Of a DNA stretch of 30,754 bases, positions 8,958 to 29,953 are shown in pieces (position 1 is the stretch's first letter; every line of letters begins with the position of its first letter). Under the pieces are notes generated by a model that was given only the letters and a program-made list of their open reading frames with translations, searched no databases and had not been told where the DNA came from. Location of the stretch: positions 1 to 30,754 of IMG/VR virus record IMGVR_UViG_3300009158_000140; one strand, given 5' to 3'. Both the position numbers and the translations under genes were made by a program. The stretch comes from a virus.

Positions 8958-11900
8958 ATGGCTAATACAGTTACAAATATAAGTTATGCCAATACTTTTG
9001 GTGAATGGGTTGCAGCCACCGATGTTTTGATTGGAGAAAACAATACATTAGGTAAAGGTAATTATACAAAAGATTCAGGTACATTGACTCTTAGTGAATC
9101 GACATTAGTGGCTTTAACATCTTTGGGTGATATTGTTGCTAACAAACAATTAAGAAGTGAAGGTACTGGTTCATCCGCAACTGTTCAAAATAATTTAACT
9201 GTTGGTGGTCAATTATACTTTACAAATTCAGTACTTGGTATAACACATACTGGCCAAGCAAACATGAATGGTCTTGTTGTTGTACAAGGACCAAATATAG
9301 GTATTACTGTTGCAAATAGTGCTTATATTGGTGGCAATACAACAATCAGATACAATACAGTAACTGATAAATTACAAGCCAATACAAGTGTAACAACATC
9401 AAATGTTTCATCTGATACTATTACCAATTCTGGTACTGTTTACACCAATCAAGTAAGAGCAAATTCTTTAATAACATCCACAACTATTAATAACTCCGGT
9501 TTTGTATATTCGGATACTGTAGTTGCAAATACAAGTGTAACAACAGTAACTGTAGTTGCAAATACAAGTGTAACAACACCAACTTTATCATCTACAACTA
9601 TTAATAACTCCGGTACATTATCTTCTGCGACTATTAATAATTCCGGTACGGTTCGTACAAATATATTGACGGCAAATATAAGTGCAAGCGTGCCAACATT
9701 ATCCGTTGCAACATTAATTGATGGTAATACAGCGTCAGGATTTTTGAACAATTTATATGCTCAAAATATGACGGTGAGTGGTAATCTTGTACAAACTGGT
9801 GCCACAATATATGCAGCAAATACATTTGTTTTAAGTCAAAATGTTGCATCAGCCATTAATAGTTATTATAATGTAGACCGTGGTCCTGGTGAAACACAGG
9901 CAAGTTTCCGTTGGACAGAAATATCAAAAAATTGGCAAACAAGAAACGTAACATCAGGTACATACTACCGTGTATTAACTGATGAGTATCTAAGTGATTC
10001 AGTAAATTCAACAAGTTCAACATCTGTTGCAACATCCAATGTTGCAAATTATCTATACAATCAAATTCTTGCCACAAAAACAATATTTACAGGCACCTCA
10101 GGTGCACCATTTACTTCAAACACATTAACATTCTCAAGTAATAATGGTGTGACAATTGTTCCTGTTGGTTCAAATACTGTTGCAATCAGTACATCACAAG
10201 ATTTGAGAACAACTGCAACTCCAACATTCTCTACATTAACATTATCAACCACACCATTAGGAACAGGTTCAGGTGGTTCTGGTCAAACATCAGCATCAGG
10301 TGCATTTAATACGTTCATTACTGGTGCAGCAGGAACAGGTTCATCAGGACAGGTACTGACAACTGGTGGCGCCGGTAGTTATTATTGGGCGGCCGGTGGT
10401 GGTGGCGGTGGTTCTGTACAACCAGGAACTACAATCAGCTCTTCTAGATTGACTTATTCGGGTGACAATGCAAACACAGTATTTGCCACACCAGTATTCA
10501 ATCAAACAAATCAACTTAGAGCTTACATCAATGGTGTAAGACAGTTTGATTCTGAATATTCTTCAAATTCTGCAGCGAATACAATTACATTTTCAACACC
10601 ACCATCAGTTGGTGATTCAGTATTAATTGAAGTTGATGGATATATTTTAAATCCATACTATGCAAACAATATTCCTGTAACACCAACTGGTACAATTACA
10701 GGTAATACAATTCAAGATGCAATTGGTACACTAGAATCAGCAAAAGCACCATTGACTGGTGCAACATTTACTGGTGTTGTATCTGGTTTAACATATGATG
10801 CCAATACAAGTAATACATCATTTGCAACTACTCAATTTGTTAAGAACGTTTTAAATCAACCAGCGGCAACAAGTGGTTCGACATATGCAATTGATACATC
10901 AGGTAATGCTGCAACAGTAACAAACGGTGTATATACAACTGGTACTCAAACAATTGGTGGTACAAAAACATTCAGTTCAACGATTGTTGGTAGTATTAAT
11001 GGTAATGCTGCAACAGTAACAACAATTCCTAGTTTATCTGGTGATGTAACTTCTTCTGGGAATGCTCTTACACTTGTAAATTCAGGCACCAATACGGGTA
11101 ACTTTGGTTCTGGTACAACTGTTCCTATTATTACTGTAGATTCTAAAGGTAGAATTACTAGCGTTTCATCTACATTGATTACTGGTGGTTCTGCTGGTAC
11201 AGGTTCAACTACTTTTGACAGAGTTACTACAACAGCGACAGCTGGTCAAACATTAATATCAAGTATCCCACACACTACTGGATTCTTACAAGTTCATTTG
11301 AATGGTATGTTATTACCATCAAATGATTATACTTCAAATTCAAGTAACAGTTCAATTGTCATAACATCACCTTTACGTGCTGGTGACATTGTTGATACAT
11401 TCGCTTATACAACCACAATAGCAAACAATCTATCTCCTGGTACTACTGGTGGTTCTGCTGGTGTGGTGTTGTACCAATCAGCAGCTAACACTACTTCAAA
11501 CACAAGTGTTGGTACATCAGGTTATTTGTTAACAAGTGCTGGTACAGGTCAACCAACATGGACAAATCCTGCTACATTGTCAGTTAATATTGCCAATACA
11601 GCAACATCAATTACAGGTACAACAGCTAACTCCCAATTCTTCTCAATTGGTGTTGGTACTGCTGCTGATTCTGCCAACACTGGTAGTGTACGTGCAACTG
11701 GTACAATCACCGCAGGTTATTCTGATGACCAATTGAAAACAAAGCTTGGTAACATTGATAATGCTTTGAATAAATTAATGACATTGAATGGTTTCTATTA
11801 TGAACCAAGTCAAATAGCATTAGATTTAGGTTACACACCATCAAAACAAGTTGGTGTTTCTGCACAAGAGGTACAAAAAGTATTGCCTGAAGTTGTGGTA

Positions 11901-12020
11901 CCTGCACCTATTGACGATAAATATTTAACAGTACAATACGACAGAATGATTCCTTTATTAATTGAAGCGATTAAAGAATTAAAAGAAGAAGTTGAAGTAT
12001 TAAAAGGACAAATTAAATGA
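8958..12020 (+). CDS. Long tail fibre with C-terminal S74 intramolecular chaperone (cassette copy 1)
   Basis: The protein has 1020 residues. The N-terminus (MANTVTNISYANTFGEWVAATDVLI) matches the attachment domain I know from cyanophage-type fibres. Residues about 140-245 are short beta repeats (VANTSVTT, STTINNSG). Residues about 495-568 and 750-818 are two copies of a fibre domain with a (L/V)NG...Y...GD.V..Y core. One ITVDSKGRITSVS motif lies near residue 727. Residues about 918-1020 are a Peptidase_S74 (endosialidase chaperone) domain: SDDQLK with Ser922 and Lys927 in the spacing of the self-cleavage dyad, GVSAQEVQKVLPEVV, then a C-terminal helix ending EVEVLKGQIK. In this family the domain trimerises the fibre and is cleaved off. 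The stop overlaps the next start (ATGA), so the glycine-rich protein is translationally coupled. The start has AAGG nearby. Confidence 0.92.
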   Translation: MANTVTNISYANTFGEWVAATDVLIGENNTLGKGNYTKDSGTLTLSESTLVALTSLGDIVANKQLRSEGTGSSATVQNNLTVGGQLYFTNSVLGITHTGQANMNGLVVVQGPNIGITVANSAYIGGNTTIRYNTVTDKLQANTSVTTSNVSSDTITNSGTVYTNQVRANSLITSTTINNSGFVYSDTVVANTSVTTVTVVANTSVTTPTLSSTTINNSGTLSSATINNSGTVRTNILTANISASVPTLSVATLIDGNTASGFLNNLYAQNMTVSGNLVQTGATIYAANTFVLSQNVASAINSYYNVDRGPGETQASFRWTEISKNWQTRNVTSGTYYRVLTDEYLSDSVNSTSSTSVATSNVANYLYNQILATKTIFTGTSGAPFTSNTLTFSSNNGVTIVPVGSNTVAISTSQDLRTTATPTFSTLTLSTTPLGTGSGGSGQTSASGAFNTFITGAAGTGSSGQVLTTGGAGSYYWAAGGGGGGSVQPGTTISSSRLTYSGDNANTVFATPVFNQTNQLRAYINGVRQFDSEYSSNSAANTITFSTPPSVGDSVLIEVDGYILNPYYANNIPVTPTGTITGNTIQDAIGTLESAKAPLTGATFTGVVSGLTYDANTSNTSFATTQFVKNVLNQPAATSGSTYAIDTSGNAATVTNGVYTTGTQTIGGTKTFSSTIVGSINGNAATVTTIPSLSGDVTSSGNALTLVNSGTNTGNFGSGTTVPIITVDSKGRITSVSSTLITGGSAGTGSTTFDRVTTTATAGQTLISSIPHTTGFLQVHLNGMLLPSNDYTSNSSNSSIVITSPLRAGDIVDTFAYTTTIANNLSPGTTGGSAGVVLYQSAANTTSNTSVGTSGYLLTSAGTGQPTWTNPATLSVNIANTATSITGTTANSQFFSIGVGTAADSANTGSVRATGTITAGYSDDQLKTKLGNIDNALNKLMTLNGFYYEPSQIALDLGYTPSKQVGVSAQEVQKVLPEVVVPAPIDDKYLTVQYDRMIPLLIEAIKELKEEVEVLKGQIK
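9516..9578 (+). repeat. 33-bp tandem repeat in the long S74 fibre
   Basis: Two 30-base identical blocks (9516-9545 and 9549-9578) encode TVVANTSVTT twice at an 11-residue period. Related copies lie nearby (ANTSVTT at about 9379), as do three TINNSG units. The shaft here seems to grow by slippage or unequal crossover. Confidence 0.8.
11532..11569 (+). repeat. 38-bp direct repeat in fibre shaft, copy 1
   Basis: This block encodes TSAGTGQPTWTN just before the S74 domain of the 1020-residue fibre. The identical 38 bases occur at 13724-13761 in the 417-residue fibre, within a longer region of high similarity (about 11090-11700 against 13290-13860). Confidence 0.8.
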
Positions 12021-12021
12021 C
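11988..12021 (+). repeat. 34-bp direct repeat at cassette junction, copy 1
   Basis: A 34-base block covers the last codons of the fibre (EVEVLKGQIK), the stop and the overlapping start of the tip gene. An identical block lies at 14159-14192. It marks the boundary at which the two S74 domains become the same again. Confidence 0.85.
12002..12008 (+). promoter_or_regulatory. Ribosome-binding site inside fibre C-terminus, cassette 1
   Basis: AAAAGGA lies eight bases before the ATG at 12017 and is encoded by the LKG codons of the conserved EVEVLKGQIK end of the S74 fibre. With the ATGA overlap this implies tight translational coupling of fibre and tip protein. Confidence 0.7.
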
Positions 12022-12736
12022 TATAATTAGGAATTTTGCAAATACAGCGGCATATATATCTGCAAATGGACAGTACCCAGCAGCTAATGTTACTGGTCTA
12101 GCAACAGTAGCAACAACTGGTTCAGCTAGTGATATTACTACTGGTACATTACCTAGTTCTGTTTACTCCGGACCATCAGCACCAGTAAGAACGATTTATA
12201 CAAGTCCAGCAACATGGACTAAACCAGGAACAGTTAAAGCAGTTCAAGTGACCTTATGTGCAGGAGGTGGAGGCGCAGGATATACTGGCCATCCAACGTG
12301 GGCAGCAACTGGCGGTGCCGGTGGTGCCGGAGGTATTGGTCAATTTACTGCACCTTCAATTCCGGGTCCAATTGCGGTTACTGTTGGTGCTGGAGGTGCG
12401 GCCGTATCGACTGGCGGTTTTGGTGTATCAGGTAATGCAGGAGGAACTTCTAGTTTTGGATCATTAATTTCTGCTTCCGGTGGAGGTGCCGGTACAGCAA
12501 CTCCGGGTCCTAGTAGTCCAGGAGCTTCCGGTGGAACAATAACTACTAGTTCTACAGTATGGGGCGGTTCTGGCCAGTGCAGCAACGGCGGCAATGGCAC
12601 CAACGGCGGAAATAGTTTCAGTCAATGGGGTATAGGTGGCACTCCTTCGATAGGTGCGTCAGGTTATGGAGCAGGCGCCGGTCCCAACGGCGCAGCAGGA
12701 AGAGACGGTTTTGTAATCGTAGAGGAGTTTTATTAA
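12017..12736 (+). CDS. Glycine-rich fibre-tip/adhesin protein (cassette copy 1)
   Basis: The protein has 239 residues. Residues 1-50 (FANTAAYISANGQYPAANV, then GLATVATTGSASDITTGTLP) are shared with the copy-2 protein at 14188. A WTKPGTVKAVQVTLCAGGGG strand follows and opens a low-complexity glycine-rich region to the end (GGAGGAGGIG, GGNGTNGGNSF), closing with DGFVIVEEFY. This layout resembles the glycine-rich domains of phage tip proteins; in T-even-type gp38 adhesins such stretches form polyglycine-II helices carrying variable loops. Adhesin function is therefore plausible but inferred. It starts inside the stop of the S74 fibre gene, with AAAAGGA at 12002-12008 as ribosome-binding site. 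Its C-terminal codons supply the site for the next gene. Confidence 0.8.
   Translation: MTIIRNFANTAAYISANGQYPAANVTGLATVATTGSASDITTGTLPSSVYSGPSAPVRTIYTSPATWTKPGTVKAVQVTLCAGGGGAGYTGHPTWAATGGAGGAGGIGQFTAPSIPGPIAVTVGAGGAAVSTGGFGVSGNAGGTSSFGSLISASGGGAGTATPGPSSPGASGGTITTSSTVWGGSGQCSNGGNGTNGGNSFSQWGIGGTPSIGASGYGAGAGPNGAAGRDGFVIVEEFY
12723..12727 (+). promoter_or_regulatory. Ribosome-binding site within VEEFY codons, cassette 1
   Basis: AGGAG lies in the GTAGAGGAG codons for VEE at the end of the glycine-rich protein, 10 bases before the ATG of the 61-residue gene. Confidence 0.7.
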
Positions 12737-12737
12737 A

Positions 12738-12923
12738 ATGAAGGCATTAATTTCACCAATAGAACCTAGACAAATTGGATATAGAGTTGCTCAAGTTGAA
12801 GAACAAGAATTTGAAGTTGCACAACCATTGTTTTGGGTAGACTGCGATGACAATATTAAAGCAGACCAATTCTGGTATGATCCAGCAGACCAAACAATTA
12901 AACCAATACCAGTGACAGAATAA
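12738..12923 (+). CDS. Small cassette-linked accessory protein, copy 1
   Basis: The protein has 61 residues and is acidic: MKALISPIEPRQIGYRVAQV, then a FWVDCDDN segment and FWYDPADQTIKP. It is clearly paralogous to the 61-residue protein at 15009, and in both cases the gene sits directly after the glycine-rich gene. I recall similar short 'FxVxxPLFWVDCxDDVxxDxFxYD' proteins near fibre genes of other phages, mostly without assigned function. A fibre assembly factor or dedicated adhesin chaperone is a reasonable inference from its cassette linkage, but no family with known activity is recognised. There is no signal peptide or membrane segment. The ribosome-binding site AGGAG (12723-12727) lies inside the last codons of the preceding gene. 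Confidence 0.8.
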   Translation: MKALISPIEPRQIGYRVAQVEEQEFEVAQPLFWVDCDDNIKADQFWYDPADQTIKPIPVTE

Positions 12924-12937
12924 TAAAAGGAATTTAA

Positions 12938-14191
12938 ATGACAACAAAAGTCACAGGATCAATATTAGCAAACACAGCAGTAACGGCGGGTTCGTATGGT
13001 GGGTCTGATGTATTCCCAGTTATTACAGTTGATGCACAAGGTAGATTGATATCAGCATCCAACACATCATTGCCATCTACTGGTGTTTCTGCTACTACTT
13101 ATGGTGGTGGTGTTAGTTCTGCAAACTTTCAACTTCCAATTATTACAGTAGACACTAAAGGTAGAATTACAGCCGCATCTAATGTAACAGTAACAAGTAC
13201 AGCCATCTATGCGAACACAGGCCAATTAGTGGCCAACACTGCTACTGGTGTTGTGCAAATTGGTCTTGCTACATCTGGTGCCAATCCAGGTAACTATGGG
13301 TCTGGTACCACAACACCTGTTATTACAGTAGATTCTCTTGGTAGAATTACCAGTGTGTCATCAGTATTGATTACTGGTGGTTCTGCTGGTACAGGTTCAA
13401 CCACATTTAATAGAACCACTGCTACTGCTACTGCTGGTCAGACATTGTTCTCAAGTATTCCACATACTGTTGGTTACTTACAAGTTCACGTTAACGGTGT
13501 TCTAATGACACCAAATGACTATACTGCCAATGCAAGTAATTCTTCCGTTGTGTTAACACAAGCGTGTTCTGTTGGTGACCAAGTTGATGTATTTGCCTAC
13601 ACAACTACAATAGCAAACAATTTATCTCCTGGTACTACTGGTGGTTCTGCTGGTACTGTATTGTACCAATCAGCAGCCAATACAACCAGTAATACAATCG
13701 TTGGCACAGCAGGTTATCTATTGACAAGTGCTGGTACAGGTCAACCAACATGGACAAATCCAGTTAGTTTAAATTTCTCAGCAGCAAATTCACAATTCTA
13801 TTCTATCGGTGTGGGTACTGCTGCAACTGGTGTGTCAGGTGAAATTCGTGCCGCAAATAACATTACTGCTTATTATTCTTCTGATATTAAATTCAAAGAA
13901 AATGTACAAGATATACCTAATGCATTACAAAAAGTTGATGCAATCGGTGGCAAATTGTTTGATTGGACTGACGAATATATACAACAACATGGCGGTGAAG
14001 ATGGTTACTTTGTTCAGAAGGCCGACTTTGGTGTGATTGCTCAAGATGTTCAATCAGTATTCCCAATTGCAACGAGAACAAGACCAGATGGTTCATTAGC
14101 AGTTGACTATGAAAAACTTTGTGCTTTAGCTTTTGCAGCTATCAAAGAATTAAAATCTGAAGTTGAAGTATTAAAAGGACAAATTAAATGA
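12938..14191 (+). CDS. Short tail fibre with a divergent S74 chaperone (cassette copy 2)
   Basis: The protein has 417 residues. Three repeats with the core P(V/I)ITVDxxGR(I/L)xxAS lie at residues 20-41, 55-81 and about 119-142. From about residue 122 to 305 it closely parallels residues about 720-915 of the 1020-residue fibre (LQVHVNGVL, TTTIANNLSPGTTGGSAG, YLLTSAGTGQPTWTNP). Residues 312-417 are a second Peptidase_S74 domain: Ser315-Asp316 with Lys320 at +5, GVIAQDVQSVFP, DYEKL, ending EVEVLKGQIK. This S74 domain is a different subtype from that of copy 1, except for the last ten residues. It lacks the MANTVTN-type attachment head, so how it joins the virion is unclear. AAGGA precedes the start, and its ATGA overlaps the next gene. 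Confidence 0.9.
   Translation: MTTKVTGSILANTAVTAGSYGGSDVFPVITVDAQGRLISASNTSLPSTGVSATTYGGGVSSANFQLPIITVDTKGRITAASNVTVTSTAIYANTGQLVANTATGVVQIGLATSGANPGNYGSGTTTPVITVDSLGRITSVSSVLITGGSAGTGSTTFNRTTATATAGQTLFSSIPHTVGYLQVHVNGVLMTPNDYTANASNSSVVLTQACSVGDQVDVFAYTTTIANNLSPGTTGGSAGTVLYQSAANTTSNTIVGTAGYLLTSAGTGQPTWTNPVSLNFSAANSQFYSIGVGTAATGVSGEIRAANNITAYYSSDIKFKENVQDIPNALQKVDAIGGKLFDWTDEYIQQHGGEDGYFVQKADFGVIAQDVQSVFPIATRTRPDGSLAVDYEKLCALAFAAIKELKSEVEVLKGQIK
13724..13761 (+). repeat. 38-bp direct repeat in fibre shaft, copy 2
   Basis: Identical to 11532-11569; it lies upstream of the divergent S74 domain of the copy-2 fibre. Confidence 0.8.
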
Positions 14192-14192
14192 C
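14159..14192 (+). repeat. 34-bp direct repeat at cassette junction, copy 2
   Basis: Identical to 11988-12021; it joins the copy-2 S74 fibre to its glycine-rich partner. Confidence 0.85.
14173..14179 (+). promoter_or_regulatory. Ribosome-binding site inside fibre C-terminus, cassette 2
   Basis: The same AAAAGGA site in the same codons occurs before the ATG at 14188, in a block that is identical in DNA to that of cassette 1. Confidence 0.7.
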
Positions 14193-15009
14193 GTTATCAA
14201 GAAATCTTTCAACACTAGGACAAGCAGTAAATGCTTCTGGTAATATACCATCAGCAAACGTAAGTGGTCTAGCAACAGTAGCAACAAGTGGTTCAGCTAC
14301 TGATATCACTACTGGTACTTTACCTAGTTCAGTTTATACTGCTGGTGCTACTGGTGTTCCTACATTAAACGCATATACAAGTTCAGGAACATGGACCAAA
14401 AGTGCTGGATTGAAAGCAATTAAAGTAACTGTTGTTGGTGGTGGTGGAAATGGACAAAATCCTGGTCCAGCAACTGCGGGTACTTCAGGTGCTGGCGGAG
14501 GTGGCGGTGCTGGTGGCACTTCAATTAAAATTTATCCAGCACCATCATTACCAGGACCTCAACCATATACAGTTGGTGGTGCAGGCGGCACATCTTCTTT
14601 TGGTGTTGCACCAATAACAGTAATTACAGCAACTGGTGGTAGCAGCGGTAGTGGTGGTACTATCGGTGGTGCTGGTGGTTCAGGAGGATCTGGATCTTCT
14701 GGTGACTTAAATGTTTCTGGAGGTATGGGTACAAATGGACAAATTATAACTGGAACAGCACCAGGCACAACGGGTGCAAACTACGGCGGCGGTGGTTCGG
14801 GAGGAAATTCTTTTTTGGGTGGTGGTGGTGCTGGTGCCATTCAAAATCCCGGCGCAAGTTCTTTTGGTGTTTCTGGAAACCCAGGAAAAGGTTATGGTGG
14901 CGGCGGTGGTGGCGCAGCATCTTCTACTTTTCCAGGATACGCGCCACCTGGAGGAATTAGTGCCGGAACAGGAGCATCTGGTATAGTAATTGTAGAGGAG
15001 TTTTATTGA
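14188..15009 (+). CDS. Glycine-rich fibre-tip/adhesin protein (cassette copy 2)
   Basis: The protein has 273 residues and is a paralogue of the protein at 12017. It shares the SGNIPSANVSGLATVAT, DITTGTLPSSVY and WTKSAGLKAIKVTVVGGGG segments and the C-terminal VIVEEFY. The middle is glycine-rich (AGGGGGAGGTS, GGAGGSGGSG, YGGGGGGAASS) and differs from copy 1 in length and loop sequence, as expected for a recognition surface. The N-terminal 60 residues probably form the docking part, since they are the conserved portion. Receptor binding is inferred from glycine-rich architecture and from its place after an S74 fibre. The start overlaps the fibre stop, and AAAAGGA at 14173-14179 is the likely ribosome-binding site. 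Confidence 0.8.
   Translation: MTLSRNLSTLGQAVNASGNIPSANVSGLATVATSGSATDITTGTLPSSVYTAGATGVPTLNAYTSSGTWTKSAGLKAIKVTVVGGGGNGQNPGPATAGTSGAGGGGGAGGTSIKIYPAPSLPGPQPYTVGGAGGTSSFGVAPITVITATGGSSGSGGTIGGAGGSGGSGSSGDLNVSGGMGTNGQIITGTAPGTTGANYGGGGSGGNSFLGGGGAGAIQNPGASSFGVSGNPGKGYGGGGGGAASSTFPGYAPPGGISAGTGASGIVIVEEFY
14996..15000 (+). promoter_or_regulatory. Ribosome-binding site within VEEFY codons, cassette 2
   Basis: AGGAG occurs in the same VEE codons, eight bases before the ATG at 15009. It supports that ATG rather than the TTG at 15006 as the start. Confidence 0.7.
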
Positions 15010-15194
15010 TGAAAGCATTAATTTCAACTATTGAACCAAGATTAACTGGTTACAGAGTAGCACAAGTTGAACCAGACGAACAAACATTTCCAGTTGCATC
15101 AGATTTTTTTTGGATACCATGTGCTGATGATGTAGTACAAGATAAATTCTGGTATGATCCAGTAGACCAAACTATTAAACCAATGCCTGAATAA
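15009..15194 (+). CDS. Small cassette-linked accessory protein, copy 2
   Basis: The protein has 61 residues, MKALISTIEPRLTGYRVAQV continuing to FFWIPCADD and FWYDPVDQTIKPMPE, and aligns along its whole length with the protein at 12738. The ATG at 15009 is preferred over an in-frame TTG at 15006: it matches the paralogue's start exactly, forms a one-base TGATG overlap with the preceding stop, and lies eight bases after AGGAG. The function is unknown. Retention of this tiny gene in both cassettes argues that it is needed with the glycine-rich tip protein, for example as an assembly factor (inference). Confidence 0.8.
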   Translation: MKALISTIEPRLTGYRVAQVEPDEQTFPVASDFFWIPCADDVVQDKFWYDPVDQTIKPMPE

Positions 15195-15200
15195 TTGCCT

Positions 15201-15234: not shown

Positions 15235-15576
15235 ATGGCAGCTGGGTACCAAGAATTATTTTTAGAACAAGGCACAGACTTCACCACATCAATCACTTTA
15301 GATGATGTGAATGGTGACCCATATAACCTTACTGGCTTCACTGCAAAAAGCCAGATGAGAAAGTCTTATTATTCTACCAATCCTACTGCTCAATTTACAA
15401 TTACAATTAATACACCTACATCTGGTGTACTGAATATATCTCTGCCATCAGCAAACACAGCCAATATTGCTGCAGGTCGTTATGTCTATGATGTTGCTAT
15501 CAAAGATTCCGCAAACACAATTACAAGAGTTTTAGAAGGAATAGTGAACGTATTACCCCGTGTAACAGTTTTTTAA
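15235..15576 (+). CDS. Small Ig-like/BppU-N-like structural protein
   Basis: The protein has 113 residues. The order QGTDFTTSITLDDVNGDPYN, LTGFTAKSQMRKSYYS, FTITINTPTSGVLNISLP, then AGRYVYDVAIKD and ITRVLEGIVNVLPRVT is a compact all-beta pattern. It is common in phage structural regions and resembles the N-terminal domain of BppU-type upper baseplate proteins. I read it as a beta-sandwich that may cap or attach the very long fibre encoded nine bases downstream; this is inference. Upstream is a 40-base gap, one of the few true gaps in the window. It holds a CTAAATA box but no strong Shine-Dalgarno. Confidence 0.65.
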   Translation: MAAGYQELFLEQGTDFTTSITLDDVNGDPYNLTGFTAKSQMRKSYYSTNPTAQFTITINTPTSGVLNISLPSANTANIAAGRYVYDVAIKDSANTITRVLEGIVNVLPRVTVF

Positions 15577-15585
15577 AGGGCCAAC

Positions 15586-18500
15586 ATGGCAACAACAGTT
15601 ACACCACCATCAGTCATCAAAGTACAAGTTGGTAGTCAGCAAAGCGGAGCTGTCTCCACAATAAATCAAGCACGTTCAGCAATCAAAGACTCCTCAGATT
15701 TCTTTCTGGGTACACCACAAGAAGGTGATGTATTAGTCTATCATACTTCCAATGGCAATTTTACATTAGTAACACTTGATGCAACTGCAGCAATTGTATT
15801 AGCACAAGCAGCTTTTAATCAAGCCAATGTGGCCACAACAATTGGTACATCTTCTTACGTACAAGCCAATACCGCCAATCTAGTTGCCATTTCTTCTTAT
15901 GCTCAGGCTAATACAGCAACCTTAATTGCTCAAGCGGCTTATGCACAAGCAAACAGTGGTGCAGGAAGTGCTTTCACGCAAGCGGCTTTTAATCAGGCCA
16001 ATACTGCTAATCTGGTAGCCATATCATCTTACGTACAAGCCAATACGGCCAATCTATTAGCAATATCTGCCTATGCACAGGCTAATATAACAACATTAAA
16101 TGCTCAAGCAGCTTATGGTCAGGCTAATACTGCTATATTAAATGCTCAAGCAGCTTATGTACAAGCCAACACCGCCAATCTAGTAGCAATATCAGCATAT
16201 GCTCAAGCCAATACAGCCAATTTAACAGCAATAGCCGCTTATGTACAAGCCAATACAGCCAATCTGTTAGCAATATCTGCCTATGCACAGGCTAATATAA
16301 CAACATTAAATGCACAGGCTGCTTATACACAAGCTAACACAGCAACTTTAAATGCTCAGGCAGCCTATACACAAGCCAATACGACAACATTAAATGCACA
16401 AGCTGCCTATACACAAGCCAATACTGCCAATCTAACAGCAATATCGGCATATGCTCAAGCCAATGCCGCTACATTAATTGGCCAAGCAGCTTTTGCTAGA
16501 GCTAACTCAGAACCTATTGGTACTGCTGCATATGCTCAGGTAAACGTAACTCAAATTTTTGCACAGTCAGCCTACGATACTGCTAACAATAAATTCAATT
16601 CTACTGGTGGTACAATATCTGGCAATGTAGTAATACAAAATAATTTAACCGTCAACGGCAATTTAAATATTCTTGGTACTGCCACAACAATCAATACGGC
16701 TTCATTAACATTAACTGATACTTTGATATATTTGGGTGCCAATAATTACACCTCAGACGTAGTTGATATTGGTATTATTGGTCATTATAATGATGGTACA
16801 AGTGCTCATACTGGTATCTTTAGAGATCCAGTTCGTAAAGAATGGATTTTCTTTAAAGGTTATGTACCTGAAGTTCAATCCAATAACGTAATTAATATTG
16901 CTGATCCTAGTTTTGCTTATGCTAACGTATATGCAAGTAGTTTCAAAGGGAATTTGGTTGGTTTTGTAACATTCTCTGATGGTACAACACAAACAACTGC
17001 TGCATCAGGCACCGGTATAGACCAGACAGCAAGAACACAAGCCAATACCGCCAATCTGGTAGCAATATCAGCATATGCACAGGCCAATACAGCAACATTA
17101 AATGCTCAAGCTGCTTACACACAGGCAAACACAACAACATTAAATGCACAAGCGGCATATAGTCAAGCTAACTCTGCAATTACATTAGGTCAATCAGCAT
17201 ACGGTCAAGCAAATTTGGCAACCAGCATTGGTACATCAGCATACTTACAGGCTAATGCCACAACATTAAATGCTCAGGCGGCATATACACAGGCTAATAA
17301 TGCAATTACATTAGGCCAATCCGCTTATGCTAGAGCCAACTCCGAAATTATTGGTACGGCAGCTTACACCCAAGCAAACACAGCCAATTTAACCGCAATA
17401 TCGGCATATGCTCAAGCAAACACCGCAACAAATATTGGTCAATCAGCTTATGCAACAACCAACTCTGCAATTACATTAGGTCAGTCTGCATATGCTCAGG
17501 CAAATACCGCAACTAATATTGGTACATCAGCATATGCAGCCACAAATTCATCAATTACTCTTGGTCAATCTGCCTATAGTAAAGCTAATGCTGCATTTGA
17601 TACAGCCAATTTAAAATTCAATATATCTGGTGGTACAATCACAGGAAACACAACAATCAATGCTAACTTGATTGTATCTGGCGCAAATGTTTCATTAGGT
17701 AATGTTGGTAATGTACACATCTATGGTGGTAATACTGGCCAAGTATTGTCAACAGACAATTTTGGTAACTTAACTTTCATTGATTTACCAACAACAAATA
17801 CAGTTACATATGTTGCACAAACCTTAACATTAACAAATGGTGTATATGTTTCTGGTTCAGTAACTGATGTACAAGTATTAAATGATGGTAACTATTATGC
17901 AATCACAGACGGCAGCAACACAGGTCCTGCATGGATTATTACTTGTACATTCACCGGTGTAACATCATTCAATAGAGTTGTTTCTAATATTGATTATACA
18001 TTAGCCTCTGGTCACACTGTATATTTCCAAGTTTATAATTACCTAACAACTGCATGGGATAATATTGGTTCATATTCTGGTGCATCTGGTTATACACAAT
18101 ACGCACTTGAAGTATTAGATTATGCATCTTATATTTCTGGTGGTACAGTTCAGGCTCGTTTGTACCATAGCAATACTGGTAATGTATCTCATGTAACACA
18201 CTTAGATTACTTTGCATTAGAAAAATCTTCACAAGGCGCACAAGGTCCAAGAGGTGCAACTGGCGCAACAGGCGCTACTGGTGCAACAGGCAATGGTGTT
18301 GCATCTGGTGGTACCACAGGCCAAGTATTGATTAAGAATAGTGCCACAAATTATGATACTGTTTGGTCTGATAATTTAACTTATGCTTATAATACTGCTA
18401 ATTTGGCATTCAATCAAGCCAATACTACACAAATATTTGCACAAGCTGCTTTTGATAAAGCGAATACTGGTGGTTCTGGTTCATCATCTGGTTATCTACC

Positions 18501-20016
18501 AAATGCAGTTATCTTTGCTAATACTACCGGTTATTTAAGTAATGTAAGTTCGTTTCAATTCTATTCATCAAATAATACAATACAAACAACCAGTTTAACA
18601 TTAACCAGTGGTGCTGGTGGCCAGATTACTTTTGCAGATGGTACAACACAAACAACTGCGGCATCTGGTGCGGCAACCGACCAAACAGCAAGAAACTTGG
18701 CCAATACGGCAAACAATAATGCACAATCGGCATTCGACCAAGCCAATTCTGCAATTACATTAGGACAATCAGCTTACGCACAAGCAAATACCGCAACTAA
18801 TATTGGTACATCAGCATATGCAACCACAAATTCTGCAATTACATTAGGTCAGTCAGCGTATGCTCAAGCAAATTTGGCAACTAACATTGGTACATCTGCG
18901 TACTTACAGGCTAATACAGCAACAAATATTGGCACATCCGCTTACGCAACCACAAATTCTGCGATTACATTAGGTCAATCAGCTTATGCTAGAGCCAACT
19001 CCGAAATTATTGGTACAGCAGCTTATGCACAGGCAAATACTGCTAACTTAACTGCAATATCAGCATATGCACAGGCTAATACTGCAACAAATATAGGTAC
19101 ATCAGCATATGCAACCACCAATTCAGCAATTACATTAGGACAATCAGCTTACTCTCAAGCAAATAGTGCAGTTAGTGTTGGTCAATCAGGATATACTCAG
19201 GCTAATAATGCAATCAGTCTTGGCCAATCTGCCTATGGCCAAGCAAATAGTGCGATTACATTAGGTCAATCAGCTTATGCTAGAGCCAATTCCGAAATTA
19301 TTGGTACAGCAGCTTACACTCAAGCTAATACAGCCAACTTAACTGCGATATCGGCATATGCTCAAGCCAATACTGCAAATCTAACAGCAATATCAGCTTA
19401 TGTTCAAGCCAATACAGCTAACTTAACTGCAATATCAGCTTATGCACAGGCTAATACAGCAACATTAAATGCTCAAGCAGCTTATGGTCAAGCAAATACT
19501 GCAAATCTAACAGCAATATCAGCTTACATACAAGCCAACACAGCCAATTTGACTGCGATATCAGCTTATGCTCAGGCAAATACTACTCAAATATTTGCTC
19601 AAGCGGCATTCAATCAGGCGAATACAGGTGGCGGCGGTGGTACATCAAATAGTTTCTCTACTATTCTTGTTTCTGGACAATCAAACGTAATAGCAAATAC
19701 ACCTACAGGAAGATTAACGTTTGTTGCTGGTTCTGGTATGACAATTACCACAGCACAAACAAGTAATACAATAACATTTGAGTCAACTGGTGGTTTTTCT
19801 GGTGGTACAATTGCAAACCAGTTAATAATTGCGAATTCAACACCATCAATATCAAATGGTACTGGTGCATTGATTGTTACTGGTGGTGTTGGTGTAACAG
19901 GCAATATATATATTGGCGCCAGCAGTGTTTTAGGTTTTGCCAACAATGCTAGCAACAGTGTGGTCTATCAAGTATATAATGCGGCCACAAATAGTTTAGA
20001 CACAATTTTTGGTTAA
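15586..20016 (+). CDS. Very long repeat-built tail fibre
   Basis: The protein has 1476 residues. An N-terminal head (about 1-68, with GTPQEGDVLVYHTSNGNFTL) is followed by three blocks of degenerate 14-residue repeats such as AISAYAQANTANLT and NAQAAYTQANTATL: about residues 71-337 (19 units), 481-678 (14 units) and 1034-1348 (23 units). Between them lie globular modules. The first (about 338-475) contains LTVNGNLNILGTATT and HTGIFRDPVRKEW, a known phage fibre motif. The second (about 680-882) is beta-rich. A run of seven G-X-Y triplets sits at about 884-904. The C-terminus (1349-1476) has SGLIV-like 'GALIVTGGVGVTGNIYIG'. Fourteen residues equal two heptads, so the blocks may be coiled-coil stalks (inference). 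No S74 domain is present. AAAGGG precedes the start. Confidence 0.85.
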   Translation: MATTVTPPSVIKVQVGSQQSGAVSTINQARSAIKDSSDFFLGTPQEGDVLVYHTSNGNFTLVTLDATAAIVLAQAAFNQANVATTIGTSSYVQANTANLVAISSYAQANTATLIAQAAYAQANSGAGSAFTQAAFNQANTANLVAISSYVQANTANLLAISAYAQANITTLNAQAAYGQANTAILNAQAAYVQANTANLVAISAYAQANTANLTAIAAYVQANTANLLAISAYAQANITTLNAQAAYTQANTATLNAQAAYTQANTTTLNAQAAYTQANTANLTAISAYAQANAATLIGQAAFARANSEPIGTAAYAQVNVTQIFAQSAYDTANNKFNSTGGTISGNVVIQNNLTVNGNLNILGTATTINTASLTLTDTLIYLGANNYTSDVVDIGIIGHYNDGTSAHTGIFRDPVRKEWIFFKGYVPEVQSNNVINIADPSFAYANVYASSFKGNLVGFVTFSDGTTQTTAASGTGIDQTARTQANTANLVAISAYAQANTATLNAQAAYTQANTTTLNAQAAYSQANSAITLGQSAYGQANLATSIGTSAYLQANATTLNAQAAYTQANNAITLGQSAYARANSEIIGTAAYTQANTANLTAISAYAQANTATNIGQSAYATTNSAITLGQSAYAQANTATNIGTSAYAATNSSITLGQSAYSKANAAFDTANLKFNISGGTITGNTTINANLIVSGANVSLGNVGNVHIYGGNTGQVLSTDNFGNLTFIDLPTTNTVTYVAQTLTLTNGVYVSGSVTDVQVLNDGNYYAITDGSNTGPAWIITCTFTGVTSFNRVVSNIDYTLASGHTVYFQVYNYLTTAWDNIGSYSGASGYTQYALEVLDYASYISGGTVQARLYHSNTGNVSHVTHLDYFALEKSSQGAQGPRGATGATGATGATGNGVASGGTTGQVLIKNSATNYDTVWSDNLTYAYNTANLAFNQANTTQIFAQAAFDKANTGGSGSSSGYLPNAVIFANTTGYLSNVSSFQFYSSNNTIQTTSLTLTSGAGGQITFADGTTQTTAASGAATDQTARNLANTANNNAQSAFDQANSAITLGQSAYAQANTATNIGTSAYATTNSAITLGQSAYAQANLATNIGTSAYLQANTATNIGTSAYATTNSAITLGQSAYARANSEIIGTAAYAQANTANLTAISAYAQANTATNIGTSAYATTNSAITLGQSAYSQANSAVSVGQSGYTQANNAISLGQSAYGQANSAITLGQSAYARANSEIIGTAAYTQANTANLTAISAYAQANTANLTAISAYVQANTANLTAISAYAQANTATLNAQAAYGQANTANLTAISAYIQANTANLTAISAYAQANTTQIFAQAAFNQANTGGGGGTSNSFSTILVSGQSNVIANTPTGRLTFVAGSGMTITTAQTSNTITFESTGGFSGGTIANQLIIANSTPSISNGTGALIVTGGVGVTGNIYIGASSVLGFANNASNSVVYQVYNAATNSLDTIFG
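15796..16596 (+). repeat. 42-bp in-frame tandem repeats, block A of the long fibre
   Basis: About 19 degenerate 42-base units encode 14-residue repeats such as VAISAYAQANTANL and NAQAAYTQANTATL. The tyrosine or phenylalanine and the QAN triplet are nearly invariant. One unit is expanded (NSGAGSA) and one shortened near the block end (ARANSEPIGTAAY). Confidence 0.9.
17026..17619 (+). repeat. 42-bp in-frame tandem repeats, block B of the long fibre
   Basis: About 14 units occur, mixing NAQAAYTQANTTTL with a second type, LGQSAYGQANLATS and IGTSAYLQANATTL. It includes one LGQSAYARANSEI unit of 13 residues, the same short landmark unit seen in the other blocks. Confidence 0.9.
18235..18297 (+). 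repeat. Short collagen-like G-X-Y segment
   Basis: Seven consecutive glycine-first triplets occur (GAQ, GPR, GAT four times, GNG). They lie within the long fibre between a beta-rich module and the next linker. This is typical of short collagen-like joints in phage fibres, which are trimeric. Confidence 0.8.
18685..19629 (+). repeat. 42-bp in-frame tandem repeats, block C of the long fibre
   Basis: About 23 units occur. The first half alternates LGQSAYAQANTATN and IGTSAYATTNSAIT, and the second half is mostly TAISAYAQANTANL. The 13-residue landmark LGQSAYARANSEI occurs twice, followed each time by IGTAAY. The block ends at a glycine-rich linker. Confidence 0.9.
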
Positions 20017-26340: not shown

Positions 26341-27294
26341 ATGTTAGATTTTAACCATGTATTGAACACTCCGGGTGCGGATATCCAAGTATTTTATGGT
26401 GATGTAACCACTACATTATTGCAATGGCAAGTGTGGAGAAAACCACGGGGCGTCAAAATGGTGTATCTATTGGGTGTCGGCGGCGGAGGTTCAGGCGGTA
26501 CAGGCCTTAATACAAGTACCACATCTGGTGGTGGTGCAGGCGGCGTTTCTGGGGCTCAATCATCTGTATTAATTCCCGCAATGTTGATACCTGATACATT
26601 GTATATTCAAGCAGGCGCAGGCGGCCAAGGACCAACTACATCAGGCGCACAGGGTGTTGCTGGACAACCAACATATGTTTCTATAGAACCTAGTACTACA
26701 CTAACACCCAACATGAATTTATTATATTCACTTGGCGGTACTGTTACTTCCGCTACTGTAGCAACTATAACTGCTGGTGGTTTAGCCGGTACTGCACCAA
26801 TTGCTGCAGTGATTGCTAATATGCCTTTAGCTGGCCGAGGATTTTACAGCTTATTGGGAGGTAATGCAGGATCAGCTGGCGGCGCTAGCACAGGTTCACC
26901 AACAGCAGCAACTCCACCGCAAACTGGATTAATGTTAACTGGTGGAACTGGCGGAGGAGGTTGTAACGGCGCTACTGGCTTCAGTGGTGGTGTTATAAGT
27001 GCAGTTACCAATTCATTGGGTCAAGATTTCTATCCAGCATTAGCTGGAGGCGTAGCGGCAGTTACAAGTACACCAGCAGGTTCAGGAACAAGTTTTATTG
27101 CAAAAAACTTTATAATGAATTATGGTGGTACAGGTGGCGGCGGTGCCACGACAACATCTGGTGGTGTTGCTGGTGCCGGTGCACCTGGTGCTCCTGGTTG
27201 TGGCGGCGGTGGTTCTGGTGGCGGAAATACAACTAATACTGCTCTAAAAGCCGGTGACGGTGGTCCAGGTTTTGTTGTTATCATTTCTTTCTGA
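26341..27294 (+). CDS. Glycine-rich surface protein, tandem copy 1
   Basis: The protein has 317 residues. A short conserved head (MLDFNHVLNTPGADIQVFYG, then TTTLLQWQVWRKPRGVKMVY) leads into LLGVGGGGSGGTG and a glycine/alanine-rich body containing IPDTLYIQAGAGG, YVSIEPSTT, NMPLAGRG and SLGQDFYPAL, ending GGPGFVVIISF. The W.KP.G...V..GGGG pattern also occurs in the cassette tip proteins at 12017 and 14188, so all four may share a glycine-rich fold. It starts three bases after the previous stop, with no clear Shine-Dalgarno, suggesting coupled translation. An adhesin or fibre-tip role is inferred from composition and context. Confidence 0.75.
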   Translation: MLDFNHVLNTPGADIQVFYGDVTTTLLQWQVWRKPRGVKMVYLLGVGGGGSGGTGLNTSTTSGGGAGGVSGAQSSVLIPAMLIPDTLYIQAGAGGQGPTTSGAQGVAGQPTYVSIEPSTTLTPNMNLLYSLGGTVTSATVATITAGGLAGTAPIAAVIANMPLAGRGFYSLLGGNAGSAGGASTGSPTAATPPQTGLMLTGGTGGGGCNGATGFSGGVISAVTNSLGQDFYPALAGGVAAVTSTPAGSGTSFIAKNFIMNYGGTGGGGATTTSGGVAGAGAPGAPGCGGGGSGGGNTTNTALKAGDGGPGFVVIISF

Positions 27295-27297
27295 ATA

Positions 27298-28257
27298 ATG
27301 TTAGACTTCAATCACATTCTATCCACTCCAGGATATAATTTTCAACAATTCTATGGTGATGCTACTACTACATTATTGCAATGCAAGACATGGAGTAAAC
27401 CAAGAGGTGTAAACTGGGTTTACATTATTGCTGTTGGTGGTGGAGGTAGTGGTTCTACTGGTGGACGAACAGCACAAACTACCGGCGCTGGTGGAGGAGG
27501 TGGTGGTTCGGGTGGTCAAACAACATTATTGATACCTGCAACATTTTTACCCGATACACTTTATATTCAAACTGGTGCCGGTGGTGCTGCTTCAACAACT
27601 GGTGCAGCAGCAGGTAATGCCGGCATTGCAACTTATGTAACGATAGAACCAAGCACAACAATTACTCCAAGTATGACTTTGTTATTAGCTAACGGTGGTT
27701 CCGCTGGTGGTGCAGAAGCGACTGGTGGTTCACCTGGCGGCGCTGGTGGTACACTTGCTACTATTGCTGGTATGCCATTAGCAGGTAGAGGTACATATAA
27801 CTTTTTTGGTGGACAAACAGGCACTACCGGAGGTTCAAGAGCTGGTGGATCTGCAGGCACCTTTACAATATCAACTTCAGGTTTATTAGTACAATCTGGT
27901 GCTGGTGGAGGTGGTGGCGGCACAACACCGGGATACGGCGCAATTGTAAATACAATCACTGGCGCACTTGGCCAAGATTTTTATCCAACAGTAACAAGCA
28001 ATTCTGGATTAGTCGCGTCTTTTTCATCACCTGCAACCGCCGGTTACGATGGTTTTATGGTAACAAGAAATTTGTTTTTTTTCGGCGGCCAAGGAGGCGG
28101 TGGTTCAAGTTCTACTGCTGGTGGTATTGCTGGTCGAGGTGGTAACGGATCATATGGTTGCGGAGGTGGTGGCGCCGGCGGCAACAATTCAGTGAATACA
28201 ACAGTAGCACCATCTGGTGCTGGCGGTCCTGGTTTTGTATACATAATATCTTGGTAA
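27298..28257 (+). CDS. Glycine-rich surface protein, tandem copy 2
   Basis: The protein has 319 residues and is collinear with the protein at 26341: MLDFNHILSTPGYNFQQFYG, then TTTLLQ, KPRGVNWVYIIAVGGGGSG, PDTLYIQTGAGG, YVTIEPSTT, MPLAGRGTYNF, LGQDFYPTV and GGPGFVYIISW. Framework segments are conserved while the glycine-rich stretches differ in length and content, so the pair arose by tandem duplication and then diverged in the likely exposed loops. It begins three bases after the preceding TGA and has no evident Shine-Dalgarno. Adhesin function is inferred. It is the last gene of the fibre island, before a late promoter. Confidence 0.75.
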   Translation: MLDFNHILSTPGYNFQQFYGDATTTLLQCKTWSKPRGVNWVYIIAVGGGGSGSTGGRTAQTTGAGGGGGGSGGQTTLLIPATFLPDTLYIQTGAGGAASTTGAAAGNAGIATYVTIEPSTTITPSMTLLLANGGSAGGAEATGGSPGGAGGTLATIAGMPLAGRGTYNFFGGQTGTTGGSRAGGSAGTFTISTSGLLVQSGAGGGGGGTTPGYGAIVNTITGALGQDFYPTVTSNSGLVASFSSPATAGYDGFMVTRNLFFFGGQGGGGSSSTAGGIAGRGGNGSYGCGGGGAGGNNSVNTTVAPSGAGGPGFVYIISW

Positions 28258-28293: not shown

Positions 28294-29067
28294 ATGGCCA
28301 CAATAACATCAAGAACTGCTTTTAAAGATTACTGTCTACGTAGATTAGGATTTCCTGTAATTGAAATCAACGTTGATGACGACCAGGTGGAAGACCGTAT
28401 TGATGATGCACTACAATACTGGCAAGACTATCACTTTGATGGTCTACAAAAAGTTTACTATGTTAAAGCATTATTACAATCTGATGTGAACCAAAGATAT
28501 TTGGATTTATCAGCAGCAACAGATTCTTCAAATAATGTAACACAAATTGCTGGTGTCACCAGAATATTTCCATTATATGATTCACAAGCATCTATCAATA
28601 TGTTTGACTTGAGATACCAATTACGTTTAAATGAATTGTATGACTTCACATCAGCATCATACATTAACTACACAATGACTCAACAACATTTGAGAATGTT
28701 AGAACAACAATTTACAGGTGAAGTACCTATCAGATTTCAAAGACATATGCAAAGACTGTATATTGATTGGGCTTGGGGTTCATCACAAGCACCAGCAGGC
28801 ACAGTGGTTGTTGCTGAATGTTATGCAACGATTGACCCAGCCATTTATACACAGGCATGGAATGACCGTTGGTTAAAAGAATATGCCACTGCATTAATCA
28901 AACGTTCTTGGGGTAACAACCTTAAAAAGTTTAATGGCATTCAATTACCAGGTGGTGTTACATTAAATGGTGACAAGATTTACCAAGAAGCCACTGATGA
29001 AATTAATGCCTTACATGCTGAGATTGGTGACAAGTATGGAGCACCACTAGAATTTATGATGAACTAA
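28294..29067 (+). CDS. 13: Neck protein, T4 gp13-like
   Basis: The protein has 257 residues (T4 gp13 is about 309). The N-terminus (FKDYCLRRLGFPVIEINVDD, then DQVEDRIDDALQYWQDYHFD) and the segments YNYTMTQQHL-like (YINYTMTQQHLRMLEQQF), WGSSQAPAGTVVVAECYATI and WLKEYATALIKRSWGNNLKK, GVTLNGDKIYQEA are the pattern of T4-type gp13. gp13 works with gp14 to form the neck that closes the filled head and receives the tail. It is the first gene after a canonical TATAAATA box and has a strong AGAGGGG ribosome-binding site. gp14 follows after one base. Confidence 0.93.
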   Translation: MATITSRTAFKDYCLRRLGFPVIEINVDDDQVEDRIDDALQYWQDYHFDGLQKVYYVKALLQSDVNQRYLDLSAATDSSNNVTQIAGVTRIFPLYDSQASINMFDLRYQLRLNELYDFTSASYINYTMTQQHLRMLEQQFTGEVPIRFQRHMQRLYIDWAWGSSQAPAGTVVVAECYATIDPAIYTQAWNDRWLKEYATALIKRSWGNNLKKFNGIQLPGGVTLNGDKIYQEATDEINALHAEIGDKYGAPLEFMMN

Positions 29068-29068
29068 T

Positions 29069-29953
29069 ATGGCGACCTCCGTCTATTTTAACAACTATAA
29101 CTCACTAGCCGAACAACGGGTAGTAGAGGACCTCATCACAGAATCCATAAAGATTATGGGATTTGACGGAATGTATTGCCCAATATTTAATGAGGAAGAC
29201 CGAGACATTCTTTATGGTGAAGATCCGGTTAAAAAATTCAACTCAGCATTTCCAGTAGAATTTTATCTATCAAGTTCTATGGAGTACGGTGGTGAAAGAG
29301 AATTCTTTTCTAAGTTTGGTCTTGAGATTAAAAACAATATCAATGTTATTATCTCTAAGCGTTCTTTTTCACAACGAGTACCACAAGCATCATTCACCAG
29401 ACCCCGTGAAGGTGATTTGATTTATGTACCTTTTCTAAATGGTACTGGTGAATTGTTTGAAATTAAATTTGTAAATCAAACAAAAGATTTCTTCATGTTA
29501 GGTCGTAAGATTCCATATTACTACGAACTTGAAATGGAGAAATTCAAATACTCACAAGAACGCATCACTACTGGTGTGTTTGATATTGATGATGTGGCAA
29601 CACAGTCAGCATATACAATTGATTTGACTGTAACTAAGGCAGCTGCCAATAATTATATACAAAAAGAAATTGTGTATCAATCAGCCGACAATACTTATGC
29701 TAACGCAACAGTTGTGGCAACTGTTCAAGGATGGAGTAATACTTCCAATACATTGAGTGTTACCAATATTGCTGGTGAATTTGTTGATGGTCGGTTGGTG
29801 ATTGGTGTTTCAAGTAATGCAAGACATACATTAATAACATTTGATCCTATGTTGGATAGTACTAGAAATGAAGTCTATGATAACGAACACATTTACGGCG
29901 AAGCCAATACAATTATAGACTTTTCTGAAATCAACCCATTTGGACCAATCTAA
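29069..29953 (+). CDS. 14: Neck protein, T4 gp14-like
   Basis: The protein has 294 residues (T4 gp14 has 256). The N-terminal VYFNNYNSLAEQRVVEDLIT, then GFDGMYCPI, FPVEFYLSSSMEYGGEREFF, SKFGLEI and RPREGDLIYVPFLNGTGELF, FMLGRKIPYYYELEMEKFKY are typical of gp14, the partner of gp13 in the head-to-tail neck. Residues about 200-262 (EIVYQSADNTYANATV, then GWSNTSNTLSVTNIAGEFVD) are a 'VYQG'-type module placed before the conserved C-terminal end (EANTIIDFSEINPFGPI), which explains the extra length. There is no clear Shine-Dalgarno, so translation is probably coupled to gp13. The stop overlaps the gp15 start by one base (TAATG). Confidence 0.92.
   Translation: MATSVYFNNYNSLAEQRVVEDLITESIKIMGFDGMYCPIFNEEDRDILYGEDPVKKFNSAFPVEFYLSSSMEYGGEREFFSKFGLEIKNNINVIISKRSFSQRVPQASFTRPREGDLIYVPFLNGTGELFEIKFVNQTKDFFMLGRKIPYYYELEMEKFKYSQERITTGVFDIDDVATQSAYTIDLTVTKAAANNYIQKEIVYQSADNTYANATVVATVQGWSNTSNTLSVTNIAGEFVDGRLVIGVSSNARHTLITFDPMLDSTRNEVYDNEHIYGEANTIIDFSEINPFGPI

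Follow-up and report, generated by a model that had tools for sequence, protein, structure and literature searches.

Which hosts a tailed phage can infect is set by its fibre tips, and what has to be exchanged along with a tip before the new one works is still an open question. The question was addressed in a 30,754-base virus record (IMG/VR record IMGVR_UViG_3300009158_000140, positions 1 to 30,754), the whole of which is called the window here and which holds the tail region of a T4-like phage. In the window, genes for a fibre with a C-terminal S74 domain, a glycine-rich tip protein and a 61-residue protein (the partner) follow one another, and the set occurs twice. Comparison with related viral loci showed that tip and partner genes were exchanged together against other tip types and that, as judged from their sequences, tip and partner were matched in subtype. 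The pair thus looks like a plug-in unit for host choice. By analogy with solved systems, the partner is probably a one-domain assembly chaperone specific to the tip. T4-like, T7-like and other uncultured phages change a tip and one 61-residue gene while the neighbours stay constant, which provides a natural test of the question. They also give small tip/partner pairs and a minimal model for the assisted folding of glycine-rich fibre tips.

The conserved tip/partner pair

An earlier note on this DNA, made from the sequence alone, had described two consecutive sets of S74 fibre, glycine-rich tip and 61-residue gene. All six genes were found with the sizes it gave, head to tail on the plus strand. 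Set A consists of fibre A (8958-12020, 1020 residues), tip A (12017-12736, 239 residues, with a match to PF21722, Gly_rich_2, at 2.7e-5) and partner A (12738-12923). Set B consists of fibre B (12938-14191, 417 residues), tip B (14188-15009, 273 residues, with a match to phrog_863 at 1.4e-19) and partner B (15009-15194, with its ATG at 15009). Both tips are glycine-rich and end in IVEEFY. Partner A was assigned from >490 IMG/VR family matches and an AlphaFold2 model, and partner B from its identity to partner A and its subtype match with tips of the PYTVG type. The repetition of the layout is genuine and goes far beyond what chance would give. An assembly artefact was ruled out for the window, because the two sets differ too much to have come from one sequence that was assembled twice. 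The partners were 66-69% identical as proteins and the tips 49%. The note had also given the same overlaps for both sets. This was true of the S74/tip joints, which share an identical 4-base overlap after AAAAGGACAAATTAAATGA, common to both, but not of the tip/partner joints, with a 1-base gap (+1) in set A and a 1-base overlap (-1) in set B.

The first IMG/VR scan for the 61-residue family gave 24 loci. The alignment-based scan gave 490 confirmed matches, and 80 loci were kept. A gene was counted as glycine-rich when at least 20% of its last 150 residues were Gly. Such a tip lay directly upstream of the 61-residue gene in 92 of 99 copies among the IMG/VR relatives and typically ended in IVEEFY, VIFEW or VIVEY. 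Among the seven exceptions, L018 and L019 carried a 2OG-Fe(II) oxygenase gene between tip and partner, and one copy lay at a contig edge; in the rest, the simple way of choosing genes had landed on a different frame or on a truncated tip. A search in the reverse direction was seeded with tip peptides alone. For 63 distinct EEFY-ended tips with room downstream, the 61-residue partner was the next gene in 56 and lay within 2.5 kb in three. The link between probable tip and tiny partner suggested in the note was therefore supported from both sides.

The S74 fibre did not belong to this link. Of 98 cases, only 3 had an S74 gene immediately upstream of the tip, namely the window twice and L088. The note had held that a family lying mostly away from glycine-rich and S74 genes would speak against a trio; the family does lie mostly away from S74 genes, but beside glycine-rich ones. 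The conserved unit is the pair of tip and 61-residue gene, not a trio with the S74 fibre. Moreover, the pair occurred in phages of several kinds: in the T7-like phage L005 (internal virion protein phrog_511, 5e-144), in T4-like phages (L021, with a tail sheath gene, and the window), and in L006 and L012, where a long tail-tip protein precedes the glycine-rich tip. Among sequenced phages the partner family was almost unmatched, with a single match in annotated phage records, from a spring sample. Two loci were found in bacterial genome contigs; assignment of a host from them was dropped, as both lie on contigs of metagenome-assembled genomes.

Joint exchange, subtype matching and a probable ribosome site

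Close relatives of the window were found when the S74 end of fibre B was used as the query. Compared with one of them, L101, the window showed a DNA identity (blastn) of about 81-91% in the stretch leading up to segment A and 95% in that beyond segment B; between the two segments it was 82-86%. Segment A (12040-12917) and segment B (14217-15199) had no DNA match in L101. In both slots the unmatched DNA starts a few codons inside the tip gene and stops where the 61-residue gene ends. The close relatives hold other tips at exactly these two positions, which bears out the swappable unit that the note had suspected. Similar pictures were obtained in other loci. L057 and L083 were 92-93% identical in fibre and oxygenase, compared with 52% in the tip and 53% in the partner; L005 and L070 were 88-97% identical in adjacent genes, compared with 49% in the tip and 70% in the partner.

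The distances between partners followed those between tip bodies (rho 0.42, with 0 of 999 permutations as high) and did not track those between the first 30 residues of the tips, which form the connector (rho 0.07, 94 of 999). Partners of the FPV subtype accompanied PYTVG tips in 30 of 34 cases and other EEFY tips in 4 of 29 (Fisher 1.5e-9), and the partner subtype changed 5 times on the tip tree, compared with 21.9 times in shuffles; these P values overstate the support, since the classes were picked after the data had been seen and the sequences share descent. In the window, tip A (subtype 2) is followed by a partner of the FEV subtype and tip B (subtype 1, PYTVG) by one of the FPV subtype. 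Given the matching, a new tip would need its own partner, which may be the reason for the joint exchange.

The last codons of the tip appear to have a second use. Codons were compared in 71 pairs, 65 of them coupled, with the partner start at most 2 bases from the tip stop, and 6 uncoupled. In the coupled pairs the EE of EEFY was encoded by GAGGAG in 61 of 65 and by GAAGAA in none; where the partner started at least 12 bases away, GAAGAA was found in 6 of 6. From codon usage at the same loci, GAGGAG would be expected in 6.7 of 61 cases, and 52 were observed. In the longer open reading frames of the window, GAG is rare among the Glu codons (18 of 161), but GAGGAG occurs in both tips (12726-12731 in tip A and 14997-15002 in tip B, plus strand). 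Because GAGGAG exceeds the codon-usage expectation so far in coupled pairs, the last codons of the tip very probably double as the Shine-Dalgarno site of the partner, and would be used so in translation. In L017 (L017:7347-8000) and L216 (L216:2935-3660), GGAGTTTTACTGATG stands behind the stop of the present tip and resembles the last codons of an older tip. It is possibly a scar of tip replacement, in which the end of the older tip was kept as the ribosome site of the partner.

Overlapping stop and start codons and a shared ribosome site would hamper the separation of the two genes by recombination, and the 61-residue gene could then be a passenger, kept by its overlap with the tip gene and without a role in the folding or function of the tip. 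However, pairs at least 12 bases apart remain together too, and L018 and L019 keep the partner despite the intervening oxygenase. The T4-like relatives searched have the partner only with glycine-rich tips of the EEFY type, and the subtypes of tip and partner match. A mere passenger is thus highly improbable.

The tip and its partner compared with known systems

A profile of 33 tips was searched against all PDB chains. The fibre of cyanophage Pam3 was the only family below an E value of 0.01 (2.3e-13), a score of which part is uncertain owing to the glycine-rich composition. The AlphaFold2 model of tip A had a mean predicted local distance difference test score (pLDDT) of 84, and its residues 54-239 were superposed on the Pam3 fibre with a Z of 22.7 and a root-mean-square deviation of 2.1 over 181 residues. 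The next fold matches were the tail-tip protein of Bxb1 (Z 17.2) and the glycine-rich domains of ALK/LTK (about 9). By profile and predicted fold, the tip is a homolog of the Pam3 fibre gp24, and it probably binds a receptor and grips the host cell. A match of tip A to the aldolase YagE was regarded as chance. BLAST of tip B against phage records gave nothing, where the low-complexity filter probably masks the glycine-rich sequence.

In a previous study, Pam3 gp24 was found to have three parts: a helical part for docking, a TNF-like domain and a glycine-rich domain that binds the host. In gp25, the product of the next gene, the N-terminal beta-sandwich (residues 1-55) grips the TNF-like and glycine-rich parts, and the helical C-terminus trimerises (PMC9608196; PDB 7ypx, 7yfw). 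The window agrees with Pam3 in several respects. The tip is homologous in sequence and fold, the chaperone gene of Pam3 directly follows the fibre gene as the partner gene follows the tip gene, and the window partner is predicted to form an all-beta domain of about the same size, 55-60 residues. It is different in that Pam3 gp24 docks on the baseplate itself, whereas the window tip follows an S74 fibre, and in that gp25 has a C-terminal trimerisation domain, whereas the window partner has a single domain.

The AlphaFold2 model of the 61-residue protein was all-beta, with five strands and a pLDDT of 95. Longer relatives (130-137 residues) made up 6 of 76 distinct family members, and all six matched the tail fiber assembly family phrog_4912 through their C-terminus (best 1.7e-5). 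In this they resemble the Tfa of phage Mu and its tail fibre assembly family, a C-terminus that the window partners do not have. The gene place of gp25, the size of its N-terminal domain, the all-beta model and these long relatives together are the reason for taking the 61-residue protein as a probable tip chaperone.

Several results weigh against this assignment. Known chaperones have a C-terminal trimerisation domain, which both window partners lack. Foldseek and VIA-align with the 61-residue model gave no structural match, not even Pam3 gp25, an empty search that was not taken as evidence of absence, and hhalign of the family to Pam3 gp25 was not significant. Besides the reservation on the subtype classes given above, 4 of the 63 EEFY tips had no 61-residue partner in the reverse search. 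Relatives of Pam3 gp25 were sought in viral contigs and none was found, and the PDB sequence search with the 61-residue protein and the family alignments gave chance matches only. Matches of the family to YccJ/PRK10174 were weak, below the Pfam cut-off, and were also taken as chance. As the window partners are without the trimerisation domain, the claim is that they work like a Tfa, not that they are one.

The same absence suits the main rival explanation, in which the 61-residue protein stays in the virion for good, where it would clamp or cap the tip or form part of the surface that binds the receptor. Some Tfa proteins, those of Mu and Ur-lambda, do remain on the particle (PMC9608196), and subtype matching is as compatible with a permanent complex as with a transient one. 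However, the nearest relative of the pair among solved structures is Pam3 gp25, which was not found in virions (PMC9608196) and covers the loops thought to bind the host. This explanation is accordingly considered unlikely. A bolder combined proposal, judged less likely than not, is that a widespread and so far undescribed family of 61-70 residues performs the fibre gripping of the two-domain Tfa proteins without a trimerisation domain. The protein would either stay on the virion as part of the receptor-binding tip or leave formation of the trimer to the S74 domain of the fibre or to another partner. With its ribosome-binding site in the last codons of the tip, it would form with the tip a tightly bound, subtype-matched exchange unit.

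If the partner is a chaperone, the process might run as follows. The fibre would trimerise by its S74 domain, which would then cleave itself off. The tip gene would be translated, and its last codons, GAGGAG, would recruit ribosomes for the 61-residue gene. The 61-residue protein would act like the fibre-binding N-terminal domain of assembly proteins of the Pam3 gp25 type: it would bind the junction of the TNF-like and glycine-rich parts of the tip, shield the plastic loops while three subunits fold, and afterwards be released or retained as a cap. The N-terminal connector of the tip would dock on the distal end of the fibre. Each of the two distinct S74 fibres would then carry an exchangeable two-gene receptor-binding tip.

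Parts of this arrangement are already known: the tip/chaperone pair from Pam3, a fibre with its chaperone across tail types from Alteromonas phages, and a glycine-rich tip on a T4-like fibre from S16 gp38. In the Alteromonas phages A5, V22 and P24 (PMC10579305), a fibre and its cognate chaperone are likewise common to phages of different tail types; the chaperones have 176-239 residues, two of them with DUF4376, and are unrelated in sequence to the present family as far as compared. Salmonella phage S16 gp37/gp38 (PMC6851490; PDB 6F45) is similar by gene order, with a separate glycine-rich tip behind the distal fibre of a T4-like phage. In gp38 of S16 and T2, N-terminal helices with an exposed Trp dock on the fibre (PMC6851490). 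The core of S16 gp38 is a beta-helix and its docking uses conserved Trp, whereas the window tip has a TNF-like core by its model and a connector without Trp; neither tip A nor tip B has a Trp within its first 50 residues, and gp38 (6F45) was not among the listed fold matches of tip A. Among phage records, the match that covered fibre B best came from Pelagibacter phage HTVC008M (48% identity in the S74 end). This phage also has an S74 fibre followed by a glycine-rich protein, of 297 residues (Gly_rich_2, 6.7e-18), and an assembly-type gene of 112 residues nearby. It is different in having no 61-residue gene; a 193-residue protein of unknown family follows instead. The literature search, which had little reach into subscription papers, gave no account of the 61-residue family or of a chaperone reduced to its gripping domain, nor of tip-subtype matching or an embedded ribosome site.

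The two fibres and the neighbouring genes

Peptidase_S74 (PF13884) was found at the C-terminus of both fibres above the curated cut-off, at residues 922-980 of fibre A (6.5e-8) and 315-376 of fibre B (5.5e-12). By these matches both are S74 fibres with an intramolecular chaperone domain, and self-cleavage is predicted. The N-terminus of fibre A (MANTV..YANTFG) is kept in relatives L099-L109, and that of fibre B (MTTKVT..LANTA) is also kept in relatives. In these relatives a platform recurs that consists of a gene of 72-76 residues, fibre A, a tip slot, fibre B, a second tip slot and an LtfC-like gene of 113 residues. Since their N-termini are different and each is retained, fibres A and B are, by sequence comparison, old paralogs.

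The note had interpreted the repeat as a tandem duplication of a three-gene adhesin cassette. The gene order is indeed the same in both sets, and parts of the DNA are repeated within the window: the shaft and S74 end at 75-79%, an 89-base connector stretch at 89%, and the 61-residue gene. A recent duplication is nevertheless largely refuted and is hardly credible. The fibre N-termini and tip bodies of the two sets gave no DNA alignment, and both fibres are present in relatives. Tip A was closest to L008 (59%) and tip B to L215 (61%), compared with 49% between them. In the tree of 69 tip bodies, in which many branches are weak, the nearest neighbour of tip A was L008 and that of tip B was L070/L057. 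The two partners fall into different subtypes, and L009-L011, in which no S74 gene adjoins, have one pair of each subtype in tandem. Furthermore, one or both slots of relatives hold unrelated tips. L101 and L100 have a tail-collar tip in slot A (PF07484, about 1e-22) and other tips with other small genes in slot B; slot A is empty in L099, and the connector gene of L109 ends in an S74 domain. The S74 types (FGVIAQDV or KQVGVSAQ) were swapped between A and B among the close relatives, with no consistent pattern of S74 type against tip type. The repeat pattern suggests local recombination around the plug-in site. In L099 (L099:9500-9645), a partner gene is cut after about 19 codons, where a second tip gene (MTIIRNFANTA..) begins; this may be a recombination footprint or a contig-end artefact.

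Other genes were found near the pairs. A 2OG-Fe(II) oxygenase of 370 residues (PF13640, 1.5e-15) follows many tip/partner pairs (for instance L005:8201-9316) and lies between tip and partner in L018/L019 (L018:2075-3187). Oxygenase genes also adjoin the tip in slot B of L101 (L101:10119-12254) and in HTVC008M (L094:12029-14268), and the locus of the window has none. The oxygenase might hydroxylate the tip. A cupin-like gene of 92-100 residues (..WHEIEALEDGTVFVNVFAE.KY), with weak matches to Cupin_2/FdtA, stands after partners whose tips end in W or Y (L013:1758-2039, L025:5270-5548, L124:4082-4384), and may be another small tip-linked gene. In L258:2803-4424 and L262:1142-2660, two consecutive glycine-rich tip genes share a single partner gene.

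The window also contains a baseplate wedge gene (1067-2428; phrog_438, 1.7e-74) and head-tail adaptor and head closure genes (28294-29953). The LtfC-like gene (15235-15576; PF23926 at 5.8e-6, and phrog_3304, L-shaped tail fiber assembly, at 1.5e-25) ends the fibre platform in all close relatives. It is followed by a fibre-like protein of 1476 residues (15586-20016). Degenerate repeats of the AYAQANTATLNAQ type make up most of this protein, which also has a short collagen-like stretch of GATGATGATG and gave no significant Pfam match. Two more glycine-rich proteins, of 317 and 319 residues and without a 61-residue partner, are encoded in tandem at 26341-28257. They end in VVIISF and VYIISW, are 46% identical and look like a true tandem duplication.

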